The notes under the pieces were generated by a model, which worked only from the letters and a program-made list of their open reading frames with translations, made no database searches and had not been told where the DNA came from. DNA of 54,835 bases. Source: Acidobacteriota bacterium. Its GTDB lineage: Bacteria > Acidobacteriota > Terriglobia > Acidiferrales > UBA7541. The stretch is taken from contig QHZD01000036.1 in the NCBI GenBank assembly GCA_003225315.1, positions 1 to 54,835 of the forward strand, read 5' to 3'. The translations under genes were made by a program, and so were the position numbers. Below are positions 43,628 through 54,835 of this stretch, in pieces; position 1 is the first letter of the stretch, and each line of letters begins with the position of its first letter.

Positions 43628-46018
43628 TCAGGGCAAAAGGAATTGTTGATGACCAGGATGCAGGTTAAGAGTCTTTCCCTTCCAGACCAATTCCCCCGGC
43701 ACATTCGGGGGAAGATTAATTTCAGCGCTCACTCCTGAGCTCTTGGAAATGTAATTCACCTCGACCATCCCCTTAGGGGTTGGAACGGCGGAGACCACGT
43801 TGCGTAAAAGGCCCAGATGAGGTTGGATACTGACGCTTGAGAATCCAGGCGCTTTCGGCCGAATTCCGGCGACGATAGTGAGAAAGTCAAAATTAGGATG
43901 AGCACTCCAGGCATGGGAATCTGACCTTGTTGGCTCGGGTTGCTCAGCCCATGTGGTAAGTCCTAAAGCAACCATGTCCCGCCACGGCTTAAGCAGACTC
44001 AGATATTGATCTCCCATTCCTGCGTGCTCGAGCGCGCGGGCCAGATAGAATCGAAAGTAGTAGGTGGCCTTCGTCATCTCCGGAACGGGTCCGGTTGAAG
44101 TAAAACCTGGGTCGCTTACCGAGAGGATCTTGGTGAGAACATCCTCCTGTTGTTCACGCGGAATCACGTCGAGCCATACACCGAGAATATTCGAATGCTG
44201 GCTGTAATGTTTCTGTGCTGGGGTATCGGCGATCAAGCCATAGGTATTGTTCCAGCACAATTTGCGGATCGCATTTACCGCGCGACTTTCGGCTTCCCGA
44301 TAGCGTTGCGCGCGACTCGAATCTCCGAAGGTTGATTCCATCTCCGCGCCGTAACGAAGCGCCTCAATATATTGAAGCGTGATGGGAGAAGAACCGCCGC
44401 CTGCATCTTCGGGCGGCATACCGAAGGCGAAGTCTTTTCCCCAATCGACGAAGGGCCACCAGTCCAAGTGTCCGACGAGTCCGTCTGGTCTCTGCCTGTC
44501 GAGGAACCAGTCCAGCACGCTCCTTGTGCCGGGAATTTGTGCCTTAACAAATCCCTCGTCTCCGCGATATCGCCAGAAGTCATGCACCATTCCGATCCAC
44601 AACAACGAGAACGTGGGAATGATCTGCGTAACCGATGACGGATAGCGACTGCGCGTGATGCCTTCCGAGATTCGGGAATCATCAAAAGCTTGAATTGCTT
44701 GGCGAGCAAGCCGATCGTCACCGGCAACGCTATATGAGATCAAAGCCTGGATACGCGTGTCGCCGATATACTGCATTCGCTCCCAATAGGGCGTATCCAT
44801 ATAGGTGTCATGCGCGTCGAGCCGAGCAGTCCGCCAGCCGATTTGCCAAATCTGACTTAGAACCGGGTCATCCGATTGGAAGCGGGCACGCTCTTCAAAT
44901 GGGAAGGCCGTGAACCAGGAGCGGAGGTTTTCAATGCGCAGCGGCTGGTCAGCGGTGTTGACGTCGAGCTGCAGATAGCGCCAGGTGCGCCAAGCCAGGG
45001 GCACAAACGGGCGCTTTTCGGAGCCGTCCGGCAGAAATTCATCGAAGATGCCCATGATGTGTTTGCCCGCGATTTCATTGCGATTGCCCTTCACTCCCTG
45101 GCTGTCAACGAGCGCTTCTGCGTAGGTGAGACGAATCGTACTCTTGGCGCCTCCGCTCACCGTCAGCTCCGGGTACGCGGTAGTCAAATGGGACTGATCC
45201 AGCAGTAGGCTGACAGTGGCGTGGGCCGGAATTTCGAATCCGGCGCCCGGGAAGTTCGCCGAAGGCTCAACTCCAGAGGCGCGTACCACGCGTCCAACTG
45301 GTGTAAGTTCCATTTGCATGGCGGGCAGCGAATTCGGCATCAATTGCCAGTTGTTGTTCTGGAGCATCGCTCCTCGCTCGGAGGCATTTCCAATCGGAGC
45401 AGCCTTCTCCCATTTGCCGCGCGAAGCTGTGTCGTTCCAGGACCAATCGAATAATGCGCCATCTATGCGCTCCGCCGGCTCCGCTACGTAGTAGAACCGC
45501 CGAACGTCCGGCGGGGTTGGCAGAGTTTGAACGCCCTTATCCTCTTCGACTTCCCAACTAGTATCAGTGTCAGCGACACTTTCCTCCGATGAATCACCCC
45601 GGAGCACAAATGCAGTTCGATCGCTGACCTGAGCCCCGGTTGAAACGCCTAAGCTCCATACTGTCGCAGCGATCTCATTACGACCCGGGCGCAGAAATGG
45701 CGACAGGTCGTATGTTTCATACTTCCAGTGTGCAAGATCGCTTCGTGCAGGACCGCGCCCTACCTCGCGCTGGTTCACGCAGAGAATGAATTGGCTGTCG
45801 GCGCTGACGTGGACGACAAAATGCTCCGGAGTCCGCGGAATCTCGATCACTTTTCTGAAATGCAAAACGACAATATCCCGTTGGGGCGCGCTCGGCGAAG
45901 TGATCCATTGCGCCTTCCAAAGTCCCGCCCGAGCTTCGGGAGGGAGCTGAGCCAATGCGCTGGTCGCGTAATTCAACGTCACGGTGAGAAAAGTGAACAG
46001 CAGTAGTTTGGTTTTCAT
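43628..46018 (-). CDS. GH78-like alpha-L-rhamnosidase
   Basis: About 796 residues from ATG 46018, where a signal peptide (KTKLLLFTFLTVTLNYATSALAQ) begins; the longer reading adds 11 residues that spoil it. An N-terminal beta-sandwich (WKAQWITSPSAPQRD, FRKVIEIP) precedes the (alpha/alpha)6 barrel. The barrel holds YMDTPYWERMQYIGDTRIQ, a variant of the DxPxRxERxGWxGD box of bacterial rhamnosidases, then WWPFVDW and ADTPAQKHYSQHSN. It would remove terminal alpha-L-rhamnose from plant or microbial glycans in the periplasm or outside. The downstream window codes for rhamnose uptake and breakdown, which supports the call. Confidence 0.85.
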   Translation of the reverse strand: MKTKLLLFTFLTVTLNYATSALAQLPPEARAGLWKAQWITSPSAPQRDIVVLHFRKVIEIPRTPEHFVVHVSADSQFILCVNQREVGRGPARSDLAHWKYETYDLSPFLRPGRNEIAATVWSLGVSTGAQVSDRTAFVLRGDSSEESVADTDTSWEVEEDKGVQTLPTPPDVRRFYYVAEPAERIDGALFDWSWNDTASRGKWEKAAPIGNASERGAMLQNNNWQLMPNSLPAMQMELTPVGRVVRASGVEPSANFPGAGFEIPAHATVSLLLDQSHLTTAYPELTVSGGAKSTIRLTYAEALVDSQGVKGNRNEIAGKHIMGIFDEFLPDGSEKRPFVPLAWRTWRYLQLDVNTADQPLRIENLRSWFTAFPFEERARFQSDDPVLSQIWQIGWRTARLDAHDTYMDTPYWERMQYIGDTRIQALISYSVAGDDRLARQAIQAFDDSRISEGITRSRYPSSVTQIIPTFSLLWIGMVHDFWRYRGDEGFVKAQIPGTRSVLDWFLDRQRPDGLVGHLDWWPFVDWGKDFAFGMPPEDAGGGSSPITLQYIEALRYGAEMESTFGDSSRAQRYREAESRAVNAIRKLCWNNTYGLIADTPAQKHYSQHSNILGVWLDVIPREQQEDVLTKILSVSDPGFTSTGPVPEMTKATYYFRFYLARALEHAGMGDQYLSLLKPWRDMVALGLTTWAEQPEPTRSDSHAWSAHPNFDFLTIVAGIRPKAPGFSSVSIQPHLGLLRNVVSAVPTPKGMVEVNYISKSSGVSAEINLPPNVPGELVWKGKTLNLHPGHQQFLLP

Positions 46019-46146
46019 AAGGTGATTTGTCCGTGCACCGTCATTCTGCACAAAAGATTTTCAAGCCCCTTACGGTCTCTTGCGCAATGCTTTCTTTGTT
46101 ATATCTCCGCGAACGGAGAAAGCCGGTGTAAGACATGGACCTTCTG

Positions 46147-48605: not shown

Positions 48606-49337
48606 TCACTGATTGCTAATTAGCGTCAATCCCGGCAAGCGGTTGCTCAACTCCTTGCTCCGCAAGGCGAATTCGAGATTACGCCTCGAAATCCTTGAAT
48701 GCTCGCGCGCGAGCGCTTCCGCTCGCGCACCTTCGCGATTCTCAATAGCCTCCACAATCGCGCGATGTTGCTCGGCTGCAATAAAGGCCGTGCTCTGTTC
48801 GAGGTCCGCAACTCCGAACACTAAAGCTTCAGGCGCTGCGAACGGGATCTTGCAAGCATGTTCTAGCTCCCGAAAGAGAGATGCACTCTTCGCAAGCCGC
48901 CACAATTCCCGGTGAAATCTCTTATTCGTCTCTAAATACCGCGCGAATCCTTCAAGGGTGATCGGAATTTCCATAGTCGCTTCCAAGGTGAGTCTCTTGA
49001 CCTGCGCTAGCTCCTCGGCCGATTCAAGCCGTTCAGCTGCGAACCTGACGGCAGTGCCTTCCAAAACGCCGCGAATTTCAATTGCGTCCCGAATGTCAGC
49101 CAGGCCGAACGAACGCAGGCGGAATCCCCCGGACGGAATCACATCAAGCAAGCCCTCATTTGCCAACCGTTCGAGTGCGAGCCGAATGGGCGTGCGAGAG
49201 GCCTGAAGCAGTGAAACAAGTCCTAATTCGGTAAGCCGCTCGCCGGGCGAGAACTCACCGTTCAAGATCCGCTTTCGCAAGGCTAGGACTAGGCGTTCGG
49301 TCTGCTTGTCCGAGTTTGAGGCAACTGTAGCCAACAT
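48606..49337 (-). CDS. GntR/FadR-type regulator (FCD domain)
   Basis: About 243 residues from ATG 49337; an in-frame TTG three codons earlier is less likely. The N-terminal winged helix reads LRKRILNGEFSPGERLTELGLVSLLQASRTPIRLALERLANEGLL. The C-terminal alpha-helical FCD domain (DIRDAIEIRGVLEGTAVRFAAERL, then HRELWRLAKSASL and HRAIVEAIENREGARAEALAREH) has the Asp/His pattern that binds a metal and small organic acid in FadR/GntR relatives. The palindrome on its start codon suggests autoregulation. Likely ligands are sugar acids or lactate, given the operon nearby. Confidence 0.88.
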   Translation of the reverse strand: MLATVASNSDKQTERLVLALRKRILNGEFSPGERLTELGLVSLLQASRTPIRLALERLANEGLLDVIPSGGFRLRSFGLADIRDAIEIRGVLEGTAVRFAAERLESAEELAQVKRLTLEATMEIPITLEGFARYLETNKRFHRELWRLAKSASLFRELEHACKIPFAAPEALVFGVADLEQSTAFIAAEQHRAIVEAIENREGARAEALAREHSRISRRNLEFALRSKELSNRLPGLTLISNQ

Positions 49338-49348
49338 TGCATGCAATG
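49335..49348. promoter_or_regulatory. palindromic operator on the GntR start codon
   Basis: CATTGCATGCAATG is a perfect 14-bp palindrome that includes the ATG of the GntR gene. The core TTGCATGCA recurs at 49412-49420 and a half-site ATTGCAT at about 49463-49469. Repeated copies of a short palindrome around the start of a GntR gene fit autorepression. An A/T-rich TATATG (minus strand, about 49364-49373) between them could be its -10. Confidence 0.5.
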
Positions 49349-50123: not shown

Positions 50124-51332
50124 TCACCAATCCTTAGGAGTATTTATGTAGGAGGAATTCAGCGCGGAGACGGACGGACAGCCAAGGAGGCGCAGAGTAC
50201 GTTCCACATCATCACGCAAAATCTCGAGTGCGCGCGTGACACCCAGCCTACCGGCAGCGGCGAGGCCGAAAGCATAAGCACGGCCGAGGAGAACGGCTCG
50301 TGCGCCAAGACAAATCGCTTTCACGATATCGCTGCCTCTGCGAACCCCGCCATCCATAAGGACTTCGGCTTGGCCGTTGACAGCGGCAACCACCTCTGGG
50401 AGCACCCTCAAGGTGGCTGGAGCACCGTCCAGTTGACGCCCGCCGTGATTGGAGACAACAATCGCGGCTGCCCCTTCGTCGATGGCACGTTTGGCATCGT
50501 CGGCCGTAAGCACCCCTTTGACGACAATCGGACCGGTCCAGATGCGCTTGAGCCAGCGAACGTCTTCCCAGGTGACGACAGCCCGGGCAAGAGCAGCCGT
50601 GACGTCGATGAGGGACATTGGTCCTTTACCCGGAATAACGATGTTCTCTAGTTTTGGAACTCCGCCATCGAGAAGAAACGACACGAGCCATCGAGGGTGT
50701 GTAAACATCTGTGGCAGGAAAGGAACCTTGGAGAATATTGAACTGCCCAAGAGCTCCTTCATTCCGTTGCGGGGATCACGTTCGCGCATTCCCGCCACAG
50801 GAGTGTCGATAGTCACGACCAGCGCCGAGAATCCAGCGCGACGAGCGCGATCAATGGCCCCTTCGGCAACCTCGCGTCCCCCTACGAGATAGAGTTGATA
50901 CCAGACGGGTCCTCTTGAAGCGCCGCGGACATCTTCCAGTTTGTAACCAGAAATCGTGGATAGAGTATAGGCAAGGCCAGCCTCCTCCGCTGCGGTCGCC
51001 GCGGCGACTTCTCCGCCCGGATGCATCAATCTACTGTAACCAATGGGAGCTAGAATCGCGGGGAAGGCTAAATCGGCGGAGAGAACCCGAGTGCGGAGGT
51101 CGCATTCGAGAATCGCAACTGCTTGCCGAGGGCGAAAAGTGACGTCATCGAACACCCGGCAGTTTTCGCGCAAAGTGACTTCGCTCTCGGCGCCGCCATC
51201 AAGATAGTCGAAGACAACTTTAGGGAGGCGGCCATGCGCCAGGCGGCGGAGGTCGTGGATATTAATGACCCGCGGAGAGGCCAATGAACGTGGTGTGCTA
51301 CGCACGGTGCCCCGGATTTCTTGTCGCGACAC
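50124..51332 (-). CDS. lldD: FMN-dependent 2-hydroxyacid oxidase/dehydrogenase (LldD-like)
   Basis: 402 residues from GTG 51332. FDYLDGGAESEVTLREN, the FMN-binding APIGYSRLMHPGGEVAAATAAEEAG, VVKGVLTADDAKRAIDEGAAAIVVSNHGGRQLD (catalytic His) and VLMDGGVRRGSDIVKAICLGARAVLLGR follow the L-lactate dehydrogenase/glycolate oxidase family. In this operon the obvious substrate is L-lactate made from L-lactaldehyde, the C3 product of rhamnulose-1-phosphate cleavage. It would give pyruvate. It lies 21 bp after rhaT. Glycolate or mandelate are other family substrates. Confidence 0.85.
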   Translation of the reverse strand: MSRQEIRGTVRSTPRSLASPRVINIHDLRRLAHGRLPKVVFDYLDGGAESEVTLRENCRVFDDVTFRPRQAVAILECDLRTRVLSADLAFPAILAPIGYSRLMHPGGEVAAATAAEEAGLAYTLSTISGYKLEDVRGASRGPVWYQLYLVGGREVAEGAIDRARRAGFSALVVTIDTPVAGMRERDPRNGMKELLGSSIFSKVPFLPQMFTHPRWLVSFLLDGGVPKLENIVIPGKGPMSLIDVTAALARAVVTWEDVRWLKRIWTGPIVVKGVLTADDAKRAIDEGAAAIVVSNHGGRQLDGAPATLRVLPEVVAAVNGQAEVLMDGGVRRGSDIVKAICLGARAVLLGRAYAFGLAAAGRLGVTRALEILRDDVERTLRLLGCPSVSALNSSYINTPKDW

Positions 51333-51353: not shown

Positions 51354-52556
51354 TCAGTCTGAAGATGCTGATTGCGTTGCCGTAGCGGCTTTGCCCATGT
51401 AATTGCCATACCCCACAATCATCGTGGAGCCCACCAGCACCAAGAGACTCAGGGCAACGAGTAATTTCGTGCGCGTGCCAGCGCCTTTCCATTCTTTAAG
51501 GGCAATTCCCCACAAAGTGCTGAAAATAATGATGCTGGCCATATGCAGAGTCCAGCTAGAAAACTTGAAACGGCCCATCTGAGTCTCACCCATCGTGTAG
51601 AAGAAGAACTGAAAGTACCAGGTTGTTCCCGCCAGAGCTGAAAAGAAGTAGTTCGGGAGCATCGGCGCTCTCGCTAGCGTGGTTTTGTCGGCAGAAATCG
51701 CGGCGGCTACTGCCATTTCCTCACCGGGAGCATCCGTGACCGATTCGAGGATGGGCTCGTTCCTTCGATCGGGCCCGCCCTCGCGGATTTTAGAGGAGAA
51801 ATACTGATAACCAGTGCGGTTTCTGACATTGAGGATCAGACACCAAGTAAAGTTTGTGGTGAATCCGCCGAGTAGTACGACGATTAGTGCCGGAAGCCCC
51901 TGCCAAATTGGCGAGGTGCCGTACTTCACAGAAAGAGCTTTGATGGGATCGCCTGCCGCAAGGCCGTAAGCGAAGCAGGCACTCATGATTCCGGAGAAGG
52001 TTGCGACCAAGAGGCCGCGTCTCAAATCAAACTCCTTGATGGAGGCACGCTTCTGCTCTGCGGACATCTCCTTTTCCTTTGACATCCCTGCCGCTCCAGC
52101 AAAAATGATGCCGAGGAGACAGACGACGACGCCCACCAGTATGATCCGCCCCGAGGAGGTACCTAATACCTCGGACCTGAACTCGCCGCGAAAAATGGGT
52201 GGTATCAAGGTCCCGAAAACGGCGGTGTAACCGAGCGCGACCGCCATTCCGAGAGACATGCCGAGATAACGCATGGTGAGACCGAACGTGAGGCCGCCCA
52301 GGCCCCAAAGAGCCCCGAATGCGTAAGTCCAGAAGAGGCTGCTGGCTGGTGTCTCATGAAGGACTTGAGCCACACTGCGCGTCATCACGAATGCCAAGAA
52401 CCAAGGCGCAATTATCCAGCTGAAGAAACCACCGACTAACCAATAAGTTTCCCAAGACCAGGCTTTTACCTGACGGTAAGGAACGTAAAAGCTTGCGGAC
52501 GCTAAGCCACCAAGCCAGTGTAAGAACACGCCCAAGGGGGGATTTGGTGCGAGCAA
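51354..52556 (-). CDS. rhaT: L-rhamnose/proton symporter
   Basis: About 400 residues from TTG 52556, chosen for an AGAGAGGG 4 bp upstream; longer readings start in non-membrane sequence. The N-terminus LGVFLHWLGGLASASFYVPYRQVKAWSWETYWLVGG matches the start of RhaT very closely. Later boxes: FGALWGLGGLTFGLTMRYLGMSLGMAVALG and TWYFQFFFYTMGE. Ten helices are predicted. A longer cytoplasmic loop (REGGPDRRNEPILESV) near residue 290 is not in the E. coli protein. It is the first gene of the operon rhaT-lldD-HAD and is divergent from the IclR-type regulator. Confidence 0.9.
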   Translation of the reverse strand: MLAPNPPLGVFLHWLGGLASASFYVPYRQVKAWSWETYWLVGGFFSWIIAPWFLAFVMTRSVAQVLHETPASSLFWTYAFGALWGLGGLTFGLTMRYLGMSLGMAVALGYTAVFGTLIPPIFRGEFRSEVLGTSSGRIILVGVVVCLLGIIFAGAAGMSKEKEMSAEQKRASIKEFDLRRGLLVATFSGIMSACFAYGLAAGDPIKALSVKYGTSPIWQGLPALIVVLLGGFTTNFTWCLILNVRNRTGYQYFSSKIREGGPDRRNEPILESVTDAPGEEMAVAAAISADKTTLARAPMLPNYFFSALAGTTWYFQFFFYTMGETQMGRFKFSSWTLHMASIIIFSTLWGIALKEWKGAGTRTKLLVALSLLVLVGSTMIVGYGNYMGKAATATQSASSD

Positions 52557-52644
52557 ACGGCCCTCTCTGTTCTTGAGTCCAGCGGAGTAGATCCGTGCCT
52601 TCCCAGAAAACCAAGCATCGAAGACGGAGGCACGGCGACTCGGG

Positions 52645-52673
52645 ACTGTAGAGCCTGAATGAAGGCCTGTCAA
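52645..52673 (-). promoter_or_regulatory. rhaT promoter
   Basis: Minus-strand -35 TTGACA (52673-52668), 17-bp spacer and -10 TACAGT (52650-52645). The predicted start of transcription is near 52637, about 80 nt before the TTG of rhaT. Strong agreement with the sigma70 consensus. Confidence 0.7.
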
Positions 52674-52696
52674 TACAAAACGAATGTCCGTATTGA
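52670..52696. promoter_or_regulatory. inverted repeat in the rhaT-regulator gap
   Basis: TCAATAC (52670-52676) and GTATTGA (52690-52696) form a perfect 7-bp inverted repeat with a 13-bp spacer. The left arm covers part of the rhaT -35, so a bound protein would block or touch polymerase. It lies between the two divergent genes and is the natural candidate site for the IclR-type fusion regulator. A TATACT at 52712-52717 may be the -10 of that gene. Confidence 0.55.
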
Positions 52697-52750
52697 AATC
52701 TGCCCCTAGGGTATACTTCCAGAGAACAGCTCGCGTTAAGGCGAAACAAT

Positions 52751-53857
52751 ATGACCAATGCGTTCCGCAGCCGATTGTACGTGATTCCCGTCTTGTCCAA
52801 GGCGCTCGACGTTCTGGAACTGATGCAGAAGGATAATACTCCGAGGACGCTCGAAGAAATCTATCAACGAACAAACATTTCCAAGACGACCGTCTATCGC
52901 ATTCTAAAGACGCTTGTTCATCGCGGCTATCTGGCGCACTCCGAGAATGGGCTATATCGAGTCGTGTCCAGGCCGAGGAAAGTCCGGTTTGGCTTCGGAG
53001 GTGAATCATCCGAGATGCCTTTCTCGGAAGGAGTGAGAGAAAGCCTGCAAGCAGCGGCGAATTCGGCAGGAGTAGATTTGTTAGTTCTGGACAACCATTA
53101 TGATGCGCAGACAGCAGTGCGAAATGCCGAGGAATTTGTCCAACAGCAGGTTGACCTGGTTATAGAATTTCAGATCGATCAAAGAATCGCGCCGGCCATC
53201 GCCGACAAAATCAGTGCGGCAGGGATTCCATTGATCGCTGTAGACATTCCCCATCCACACGCCACTTACTTTGGCGTAGATAATTACCGAGTCGGATTTG
53301 AGGCCGGTCAGTATTTGGCCCATTTTGCCAAGAGCCGCTGGGGCGGGGAGGTGAGCCGAGTACTTGGACTGGGGATCGAGGAAGCGGGACCGCTGGTGCA
53401 AAGCCGGATCACCGGCGCATTCGCGGGTGTGCGCTCGCGGCTTCCCGGGATAAGGCAGGACGCTTACGTCTTGATGGACGGAGAAGGCTTGCGCGAGAAA
53501 AGCTGCCGACAAGTGCAAGACTTCCTTCGTAAGCATTCGAAAGAACGAGGGTTGTTGATCGCAGCAGCCACCGACACCAGCGGGCTTGGAGCGCTGCAGG
53601 CGGTGCGAGAAATGAAGAGAGAAAAGGACGTTGCCATTGTGGGCCAGGATTGCATCAATGAGGCGCTCGAAGAGATGAAGACTCCCGGCACACCCTACAT
53701 TGCTTCCGTATCACATGAAGCGGGAAGCTATGGTCCGCGGTTGATTCAATTGGGACTGGGAATCCTAAACGGGCAAACCGTGCCGCCTTACAACTACATT
53801 GCCCACAAGCTGGTCACGGCGACGTCCATGTCAAAAAGAGCGCGGGCGGCAAGCTGA
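52751..53857 (+). CDS. IclR-type HTH fused to sugar-binding-protein domain
   Basis: 368 residues. Residues about 10-75 (VLSKALDVLELMQKDNTPRTLEEIYQRTNISKTTVYRILKTLVHRGYL) are an IclR-type winged helix. In place of the usual IclR ligand domain, residues about 90-355 form a periplasmic-binding-protein fold as in LacI regulators and ribose-binding proteins (VRNAEEFVQQQVDLVIEFQ, YFGVDNYRVGFEAGQYLA, VAIVGQDCINEALEE). No signal peptide, so it acts in the cytoplasm. It is divergent from rhaT and upstream of the aldolase gene; the likely ligand is L-rhamnose or an intermediate, and the likely targets are these two units. Confidence 0.85.
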   Translation: MTNAFRSRLYVIPVLSKALDVLELMQKDNTPRTLEEIYQRTNISKTTVYRILKTLVHRGYLAHSENGLYRVVSRPRKVRFGFGGESSEMPFSEGVRESLQAAANSAGVDLLVLDNHYDAQTAVRNAEEFVQQQVDLVIEFQIDQRIAPAIADKISAAGIPLIAVDIPHPHATYFGVDNYRVGFEAGQYLAHFAKSRWGGEVSRVLGLGIEEAGPLVQSRITGAFAGVRSRLPGIRQDAYVLMDGEGLREKSCRQVQDFLRKHSKERGLLIAAATDTSGLGALQAVREMKREKDVAIVGQDCINEALEEMKTPGTPYIASVSHEAGSYGPRLIQLGLGILNGQTVPPYNYIAHKLVTATSMSKRARAAS

Positions 53858-54061
53858 GCGTGGCTGGCGAAGTGGCACAAGGCGCAGGAGAATCCGGTCC
53901 GCCTGATACCACAGCCTCTGCGAAAGCGGACATCGTCAAGCCTTGTGTGATTCCTCTATTGAAAGAATTAACCTATTGCAGTCTTTCTTCCTGGAGCGTA
54001 TCGTCGAGACCGCTCCTGGTGGTCGAATTAATCGGGCAACTTGCTCGCATGGAAGCCGACG
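53858..54061. other. gap before the aldolase gene
   Basis: About 200 bp with no gene I can support. A short frame that runs through it has no family resemblance. It could hold a promoter or only a leader for the aldolase gene. Confidence 0.35.
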
Positions 54062-54073
54062 ATGGTTTTTCCC

Positions 54074-54835
54074 ATGAAATCCAAAGAGAAACTACGATAC
54101 CTGGAAGATCGCTGGGATGATCAGATTGCGAAGGGCTTGGACGCCGCCGAATTGTTGCGGTATCGGTCAAATCTTTTGGGTTCGGACTTGCGAATTACGA
54201 ATTTCGGAGGGGGGAACACTAGCTCCAAAATCGAGGAGACGGACCCGCTCGATGGGAGGAAAGCAACCGTCTTATGGATTAAGGGGAGCGGCGGAGATAT
54301 TGGAAGCATTCAAAGGAAAGGTTTCGCGACCTTATATCTCGATAAACTGCATGCTGCGAAGAAGCGCTATCGCGGCGTGGAATTCGAAGACGAGATGGTG
54401 GAGATGTACCCGCTATGCGCGTTCGGTAATAATACGGTCGCAGCTTCGATTGATACGCCTTTGCACGGCTTTCTTCCGTTTGCCCATGTCGACCATCTGC
54501 ACCCAGACTGGGGAATTGCGCTGGCCGCGGCGGCAAACGGGCGCGCGAAAATGGAGGAATTTAATCGGCGGTTTGAGCACCGCTTGATCTGGCTGCCCTG
54601 GCAACGGCCGGGATTCGAACTCGCTATGATGCTGCACGAAGCGGTTAGTGCCAGTCCGGGTTGTGACGGAGTTGTTTTGGGTGGACATGGGCTATTTACG
54701 TGGGGAGAGACACAGCGGGAGTGCTATTCGAACACTCTGACGGTAATCGATCAATTGGGCCAATTCATTGCACAGCACGTGGAAGAAAAGGGAAATGCTC
54801 TCTTCGGTGGCACGCTTTCAGCGACGCTTGAGAAC
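54074..54835 (+). CDS. rhaD: rhamnulose-1-phosphate aldolase/dehydrogenase fusion, 5' part
   Basis: The gene is cut by the window end; 254 codons are visible. ATG 54074 (MKSKEKL) is the likely start, and ATG 54062 in the same frame is possible. The part seen is a class II aldolase/adducin-type domain: LRYRSNLLGSDLRITNFGGGNTSSKI, LWIKGSGGDIG, TPLHGFLPFAHVDHLHPD (zinc His pair) and GGHGLFTWGE. This N-terminus is the one found on bifunctional proteins whose C-terminal half is a short-chain dehydrogenase. They split L-rhamnulose-1-phosphate to DHAP and L-lactaldehyde and then oxidise the aldehyde. The dehydrogenase half must lie beyond the window. Confidence 0.85.
   Translation, partial: MKSKEKLRYLEDRWDDQIAKGLDAAELLRYRSNLLGSDLRITNFGGGNTSSKIEETDPLDGRKATVLWIKGSGGDIGSIQRKGFATLYLDKLHAAKKRYRGVEFEDEMVEMYPLCAFGNNTVAASIDTPLHGFLPFAHVDHLHPDWGIALAAAANGRAKMEEFNRRFEHRLIWLPWQRPGFELAMMLHEAVSASPGCDGVVLGGHGLFTWGETQRECYSNTLTVIDQLGQFIAQHVEEKGNALFGGTLSATLEN

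Follow-up and report, generated by a model that had tools for sequence, protein, structure and literature searches.

How does an acidobacterium control its L-rhamnose genes, and does it do so with a regulator of one of the kinds already known for this sugar? The question is raised by a contig of 54,835 nucleotides (QHZD01000036.1, assembly GCA_003225315.1) from an Acidobacteriota bacterium, which was analyzed over its whole length and is called the window throughout. Between rhaT and a rhaD-type gene, the window encodes a protein that joins an IclR-type winged helix to a sugar-binding-protein sensor. We consider it about 80% probable that this gene encodes the local regulator of an L-rhamnose regulon, most likely a repressor, which would release 27-bp operators upon L-rhamnose or a close intermediate. 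The domain architecture and the gene context point this way, as does a conserved site that is restricted to loci of the regulator's own clade (clade A).

What kind of protein is this regulator? The gene and its two domains are as follows.

52751–53857, plus strand: chimeric regulator, 368 aa, IclR-type winged helix and type I sugar-binding-protein sensor (open reading frame, PF09339, PF13407, AlphaFold2, Foldseek).
52793–52936, plus strand: HTH_IclR domain, residues 15–62 (PF09339; presumed recognition helix pattern).
53003–53776, plus strand: Peripla_BP_4 sensor, residues 85–342 (PF13407; Foldseek; family matches of 42 members).

An initial annotation had proposed this pairing for 52556–53857, a span that includes the gene and also takes in the gap to rhaT. 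The pairing was borne out by a Pfam domain search, with both domains above cut-off: HTH_IclR (PF09339) at E 2.9e-13 (49.8 bits, cut-off 22) and Peripla_BP_4 (PF13407) at E 7.5e-29 (101.5 bits, cut-off 35.1). The same layout recurs in all 42 aligned relatives at E ≤ 0.001, the threshold for all family-wide counts given here; PF13407 is matched by 42 of the 42 and PF00532 by 39. In the IclR family, the C-terminal part is a GAF-like IclR effector domain. Our regulator shares the N-terminal HTH_IclR with that family (COG1414; IclR, KdgR, AllR, PcaU), but the 22 families to which the 42 members match do not include the IclR effector model, and Peripla_BP_4 stands in its place in every member. With the LacI family it shares a sugar-binding-protein sensor behind a DNA-binding head, but the LacI helix-turn-helix (HTH) model (PF00356) is likewise absent among those 22 families. 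Both the domains and the predicted fold thus show a winged-helix head fused to a sugar-binding-protein sensor, the layout of an AraR-like chimera.

The fold prediction and the structural matches agree with this division. The AlphaFold2 model, built with the 42 relatives, has a mean predicted local distance difference test score (pLDDT) of 90.3 and a predicted template-modeling score (pTM) of 0.77. Its top Foldseek match is the ribose-binding protein 2ioy (template-modeling score 0.87 by target length), and the best solved structures are ribose-, galactofuranose/arabinofuranose-, glucose-, and other ATP-binding cassette (ABC)-type sugar-binding proteins. Of the 55 Protein Data Bank sequences with matches at E ≤ 0.1, none has a best stretch that spans both parts; each covers the head or the sensor alone. 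The idea that the winged helix replaces a LacI-type HTH, with the sensor derived from a LacI regulator, was not supported: Peripla_BP_4 is the best sensor model, the LacI-family Peripla_BP_1 comes second among the sensor models, and the best models and matches are ABC-transporter-type sugar-binding proteins.

In what genomic setting does the regulator occur? It sits between rhaT, from which it diverges as initially proposed, and the rhaD-type gene.

51354–52556, minus strand: rhaT, L-rhamnose/proton symporter, start approximate (NF010024, 539.8 bits, cut-off 468).
54041–54835, plus strand: rhaD-type bifunctional aldolase/dehydrogenase, truncated by the contig end, start approximate (NF006189).

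The stretch 54080–54835 scores 380.8 bits against positions 5–248 of the 701 of NF006189, below the whole-protein cut-off of 634. The product is of the bifunctional rhamnulose-1-phosphate aldolase type, with a full-length homologue of 739 aa in locus L053 (loci and genomes of relatives are numbered L and G).

Relatives of the regulator fall into clade A (47–98% identity to the query) and clade B (32–38%), a split with 100/100 support in a tree that carries a long-branch warning and leaves clade A versus L116:5507 unresolved. Taking both clades together, 134 of 399 sampled genomes of the class match at E ≤ 1e-50 and 44 of 396 of the phylum at E ≤ 1e-30; outside the phylum, the search covered a plasmid collection. 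The near relatives found by a genome contig search are three metagenome-assembled genomes of Acidobacteria gp2, at 98, 95, and 91% identity. The presumed recognition helix follows the pattern [SA]KT[TS]VYR in 24 of 26 clade A rows of the alignment and in none of the 16 others.

Of the clade A copies, 39 were fetched with their flanks, a subset of those existing, and 36 of these adjoin a rhaI, rhaD, rhaB, or rhaT gene; this is the context of a local rhamnose regulator. The arrangement varies. The regulator diverges from rhaT in the window and five genus relatives; L042 and L043 have regulator-rhaI-rhaD-rhaB; a second family, f11, perhaps Acidobacteriaceae, has mostly rhaI-regulator-rhaD-rhaB; and in L053 and L054 the regulator is followed by rhaD, rhaB, rhaI, and an outer-membrane beta-barrel gene. 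In L053, RhaI (500.8 bits, cut-off 531.35) and RhaB (343.9 bits, cut-off 527.95) stay below the NCBIfam cut-offs and were assigned by best model and context. The IclR and periplasmic-binding-protein (PBP) chimera thus lies by rhamnose genes in two Acidobacteriota families, and the predicted site described below precedes rhamnose genes in both.

Where might such a regulator bind? The window holds two candidate operators.

52670–52696, no strand: predicted operator 1, TCAATAC-N13-GTATTGA, in the regulator–rhaT gap (present in all 6 genus gaps; matrix rank 1).
52645–52673, minus strand: rhaT promoter-like sequence, TTGACA-17-TACAGT, which shares positions with operator 1 (a single match in the region, where chance predicts about one).
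53953–53979, no strand: predicted operator 2, in the gap between regulator and rhaD-type gene (matrix rank 2; conserved island in 6 of 6 gaps; match to model R1, described below, at 53956–53978).

The 7-13-7 repeat of operator 1, over the rhaT −35, was part of the initial annotation and is present. By itself it is weak evidence: the 194-bp gap contains three perfect 7-bp inverted repeats (spacer 0–30) vs. a mean of 0.295 in dinucleotide shuffles, of which 1.9% of 1,000 equal the observed count. As a search key with up to two mismatches it proved unspecific, matching 36 of 37 genomes and occurring at 8 places in the own genome vs. 4 for a reversed control; the 7-base key was uninformative there. 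The repeat carries weight because it is conserved in the genus gaps and ranks top for a matrix from another family. It is kept in all six regulator/rhaT gaps of the genus, the window included (four with perfect arms, one with one mismatch, one with two), although about three independent lineages are represented, since three sequences are >90% identical to the window. Loss of the repeat from orthologous gaps, which would have spoken against the site, was thus not seen. Alignments of the genus gaps (six sequences each) contain two conserved islands amid diverged sequence, GTCAATACAAAA...TATTGAAA between regulator and rhaT and CTATTGAAA..ATTA..CTATTGCA before rhaD. It is therefore hardly credible that the repeat arose by accident beside a conventional IclR or LacI regulator gene: inverted repeats of 7 bp are frequent by themselves, but this one is kept across the genus and found by the other family's matrix, and the protein has both domains above cut-off with neither the IclR effector nor the LacI HTH in its family.

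Strictly fixed 7-13-7 arms, tried as the operator, were rejected: the arms before the L053 beta-barrel gene are 18 apart, and before rhaD in the genus two CTATTG copies stand as direct repeats. A 27-bp box is the better description. The clade A consensus is the near-palindrome TCAATA-S-RGnAA-NNN-TTTC-Y-nATnTGA, of which the 7-bp arms are the outer part; the arms alone omit the inner IclR-like core, which is degenerate in window operator 1 (GGACATTCGTTTT) between perfect outer arms. The second site, before rhaD, had been missed by the initial annotation.

Can the operators be recovered with a motif learned elsewhere? The half-site had first been seen in genus and f11 loci, before any motif search. 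An expectation–maximization search, with 24-mer seeds from three f11 loci (2,040 seeds, 2,020 with a result) over 97 f11 upstream regions, ranked variants of a single motif at the top among its 15 best seeds. Refined to 27 bp (tCAATAgaGcAAcTATTTCccatttGa), the motif comprises 38 distinct sites, with self-complementarity best at the center (r 0.54). The matrix was trained without any sequence of the window's genus, and the window and seven other genus loci contain no exact copy of any of the 38 sites. Applied to the window, it places 52670 first (15.7 bits) and 53953, before rhaD, second (14.3), the next, unrelated position scoring 10.8; the two rha gaps are ranks 1 and 2 of 54,809 positions. 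With column permutation, none of 500 matrices brings the two window gaps together into the top 4. In L053 the corresponding gaps hold ranks 1 and 3, and 1 of 500 permuted matrices reaches the top 4 with both; their ranks are 2 and 1 in L040 and 4 and 1 in L041.

How specific is the motif to loci of clade A? With a threshold of 14 bits or more for all locus scans, the window has two matches, both in rha gaps. The seven other genus loci have 19 in 114,627 positions, 13 of them before rha or beta-barrel genes and 6 elsewhere; of these six, one precedes a GH106 rhamnosidase gene (L041), two precede sugar permease genes (L042 and L043), and three are unexplained. In clade A as a whole, including the 29 f11 training loci, there are 84 matches in 36 loci: 52 upstream of rha or beta-barrel genes, 12 elsewhere, and 20 that were scored as inside RhaI and actually lie just before the aligned RhaI start, the reference RhaI having a longer N terminus. 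The clean comparison for specificity is with clade B and further loci. No match was found in nine clade B loci (136,853 positions) or in 11 further loci (157,772 positions), eight of which have clade B copies only. Clade B using the clade A operator is accordingly unsupported, with no match in any of the 18 loci that have a clade B copy. Motif scans and gap alignments together thus give a shared operator before the rha genes of clade A.

The off-cluster genus sites are observations in their own right. They lie at L041:4287 (the GH106 rhamnosidase gene), L042:13862, and L043:6871 (the sugar permease genes), and these genes probably belong to the regulon because operator-like sites precede them.

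Do genome-scale scans reveal targets outside the cluster? A first model, R1, was built from 26 sites of both families. On the own genome it gave two matches at E ≤ 5, both in the window (0.38 and 0.89); on five relatives it gave 19, of which 15 are on the regulator's contig (many being training sites) and four off it. Two of the four are one orthologous site by sequence, in G019 and G011, before an alpha-L-rhamnosidase gene with Rha78A-type rhamnosidase domains, at 145 bp in G019 and 323 bp in G011. An unchecked mechanical open reading frame overlies the site in G011, and in G019 an FG-GAP gene begins on its other side. The off-cluster matches G019:C94 (MacB-like genes) and G029:C188 have no link to rhamnose and were taken as chance. 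A second model, R2, was trained on f11 only and run on 17 genomes, 8 with and 9 without a clade A copy. It gave six places at E ≤ 3, four of them in rha clusters or at the rhamnosidase gene (G034 permease, G011, G019, and G026 rhaD), so that the rhamnosidase site of G019 and G011 was recovered again; the other two are G007:C108, in a genome without clade A, and G026:C494.

How would the system work? A dimer (or tetramer) would grip the 27-bp near-palindrome through its IclR-type winged helices, in the window before rhaT and the regulator and before rhaD, and in relatives before rhaI, rhaD, rhaT, outer-membrane beta-barrel, and rhamnosidase genes. L-rhamnose, or a close intermediate such as rhamnulose, would close the sugar-binding-protein domain, and the DNA would be released. 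Repression is the most likely sign because the sites overlie or just follow promoter-like sequences. Operator 1 overlies the rhaT −35-like element; the rhamnosidase site is alike, with one arm running into TTGACA; and of the 29 f11 rhaI regions examined (from related genomes and hence nonindependent), 24 have a site, preceded in 15 by an exact TTGACA that starts 36–40 bp ahead of it. L-rhamnose or a near intermediate is the likeliest signal because of the closed-cleft sensor fold and the gene context.

Several points weigh against this reading. Five of the 36 clade A loci (L042, L043, L055, L094, and L109) have no upstream-scored site of at least 14 bits, although L043 and L094 each have one just before the aligned RhaI start and the best scores in L055 are 13.5 and 12.0. 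The clade A copies L114, L115, and L116:5507 have neither rha genes nearby nor a site; these extra copies (the last at L116:5507–6607) may now serve a different sugar. Both the width of 27 bp and the register were set by hand, after the 24-bp motif and its likeness to the annotated repeat had been seen, so the exact register is not blind; rank and place are. Of 500 permuted matrices, 31 reach the top 4 with both gaps in L040, a short contig, and 7 do so in L041. The arm symmetry of the window site is atypical, f11 sites pairing at 82% at ±12, 74% at ±5, 68% at ±3, 66% at ±2, and 18–42% at the other nine positions. The R1 training set held the window's rhaT site and many sites of relatives, and in the own genome 150 of its 718 first-look candidates were scored; with R2, for which 150 of 498 candidates were scored, both window sites stayed unrecovered at E ≤ 3. 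Finally, proteins of the IclR family can also activate.

This last point favors the same regulator and operator acting as an activator, or as a dual regulator that needs rhamnose, as does the f11 site 75–126 bp before the aligned rhaD start, within the cluster, where no clear promoter was seen. We regard such a role as unlikely, since operator 1 overlaps the rhaT −35-like element and the 15 of 24 f11 rhaI sites that start 36–40 bp after the start of TTGACA have a placement typical of repression.

A different effector, be it rhamnulose, rhamnulose-1-phosphate, L-lactaldehyde, an oligosaccharide, or another deoxy sugar, is doubtful, yet deserves more credit. In the plasmid collection 19 records match at 30–32% identity over parts of residues 72–364, with query starts at 72 or later and the HTH unaligned in all. 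These records, the nearest to the sensor on plasmids, are ABC-type sugar-binding proteins in mixed contexts; of the three viewed, that of Acidisoma lies in an L-rhamnonate dehydratase (rhmD) cluster, that of Rhizobium next to an arabinose isomerase gene, and that of Bradyrhizobium has no sugar genes listed. The Rhizobium and Acidisoma proteins resemble the sensor part of our regulator and do not align to its HTH part. A clade B relative by GH127 and fucosidase genes also speaks for another effector. Against it, the clade A context and the off-cluster target are linked to rhamnose, and the sensor fold is that of free-sugar-binding proteins.

Does clade B read a site of its own? Among the clade B loci L044–L052, eight of nine adjoin rha genes (L045 by a RhaI fragment match only) and L051 does not; in L051:1–19000 a clade B regulator lies by GH127, alpha-L-fucosidase, and RuBisCO-like genes. 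A further rhamnose locus of the own genome (G000:C27; L044, 9513–14081) combines a clade B regulator with rhaI and rhaT. A box, TTTCGC-N3-GCRAAA, was spotted by eye and then scanned in 26 sequences, including the window and genus clade A loci. It gave 12 matches at 11 places in 8 loci and none in the other 18 sequences; those 8 are among the 18 loci with a clade B copy, and the box stands 32–443 bp before the regulator or rhaI. The L044 box of the own genome, TTTCGC-N3-GCAAAA, is unlike the clade A site. Because the box is missing from 10 loci bearing clade B copies (L051 and L116–L124), including L120 and L124 beside rhaD and rhaB, it is a feature of one branch.

The clade A consensus and the clade B box bear a likeness to IclR boxes as given in a 2021 survey of IclR-family motifs, which covers COG1414 proteins. 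In a comparison by eye, RGnAA-NNN-TTTC, the clade A core, is spaced like the Escherichia coli IclR box TGGAAATNATTTCCA (PMC8222616, Table 1), although the window's own core fits that box only partly; the clade B box agrees with the group 1 consensus of the IclR family, GKTYCRYW3-4RYGRAMC (PMC8222616). The presumed recognition helix is unlike between the clades. We float, at even odds, the idea of an undescribed Acidobacteriota family in which two paralogous clades at rhamnose loci, within one genome, read opposite orders of IclR-kind half-sites: clade A GnAA..TTTC inside TCAATA/TATTGA, and one branch of clade B TTTCGC-N3-GCGAAA.

The same comparison bears on whether the conserved boxes might be promoter elements or sites of another regulator, the IclR-PBP protein binding elsewhere. 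Conserved DNA does not name its binding protein, and operator 1 contains the rhaT −35-like element. Still, the motif precedes rhaT, rhaI, rhaD, beta-barrel, and rhamnosidase genes at varying positions relative to TTGACA, is absent at 14 bits from the 18 loci with clade B copies, 8 of which bear another box, and has a core that resembles the IclR box; we consider such a mismatch of protein and site quite improbable.

What else does the window hold around the cluster?

50124–51332, minus strand: FMN-dependent dehydrogenase, behind rhaT (PF01070).

By inference this enzyme would be of the L-lactate dehydrogenase type, and such a gene also adjoins rhaT in L041, L046, L049, L053, L054, and L055. 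At its place in L042 (10802–13636), LUD-domain and LutB-like L-lactate oxidation genes adjoin the regulator. A GntR/FCD regulator gene (48606–49346, minus strand) lies within the minus-strand gene run behind rhaT, and about 5 kb behind rhaT is a rhamnosidase-type gene (43628–46051, minus strand), with an 80% identical gene in the clade B rha cluster of L046; the window scan gave no motif match of at least 14 bits before it.

How does the chimera compare with known regulators? XylR of E. coli is another PBP-sensor chimera. AraR, whose sugar differs from the one proposed here, joins a GntR-type winged helix to a LacI-type sugar-binding domain; it thus resembles our regulator in pairing a winged helix with a PBP sugar sensor, but the head here is IclR-type and the operators differ. 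Our regulator is a new combination within this known design, which is noted for AraR of Bacillus subtilis in PMC4052901, where Franco et al. 2006 is cited for it. A 2013 survey of rhamnose regulons (PMC3870299) describes in its main text twelve regulator groups of the AraC, DeoR, and LacI families, among them RhaR/RhaS (AraC type), RhaR (DeoR type), and RhaR, RhmR, and RhiR (LacI type), which, as proposed for the chimera, locally regulate genes for rhamnose uptake and breakdown and for rhamnosidases. Words beginning with "iclr" or "acidobacteri" occur 0 times each in that main text, as do "rhamnose" and "acidobacteri" in the main text of PMC8222616. The titles and abstract beginnings brought up by literature searches held no description of an IclR-PBP rhamnose regulator, within a scope that left out subscription papers, preprints, supplements, and RegPrecise. 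The initial suggestion of a rhamnose regulator apart from the AraC, DeoR, and LacI types fits the domains, the context, the conserved operator, and the off-cluster rhamnosidase target; rhamnose sensing and DNA binding by the protein are probable.

Plant pectin and bacterial polysaccharides commonly contain rhamnose. To the AraC, DeoR, and LacI types that are known for this function, the chimera would add one more solution, unrelated to them. The analysis also supplies a predicted regulator, operator, and regulon, directly testable, for Acidobacteriota, a phylum missing from the main text of the 2013 survey (PMC3870299). How winged-helix specificity changes could be studied with clades A and B, naturally paired relatives whose operators differ. 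If the proposal of opposite half-site orders is true, the same domain scaffold changed its operator geometry but kept its sugar, and two rhamnose regulons could operate in parallel without crosstalk.

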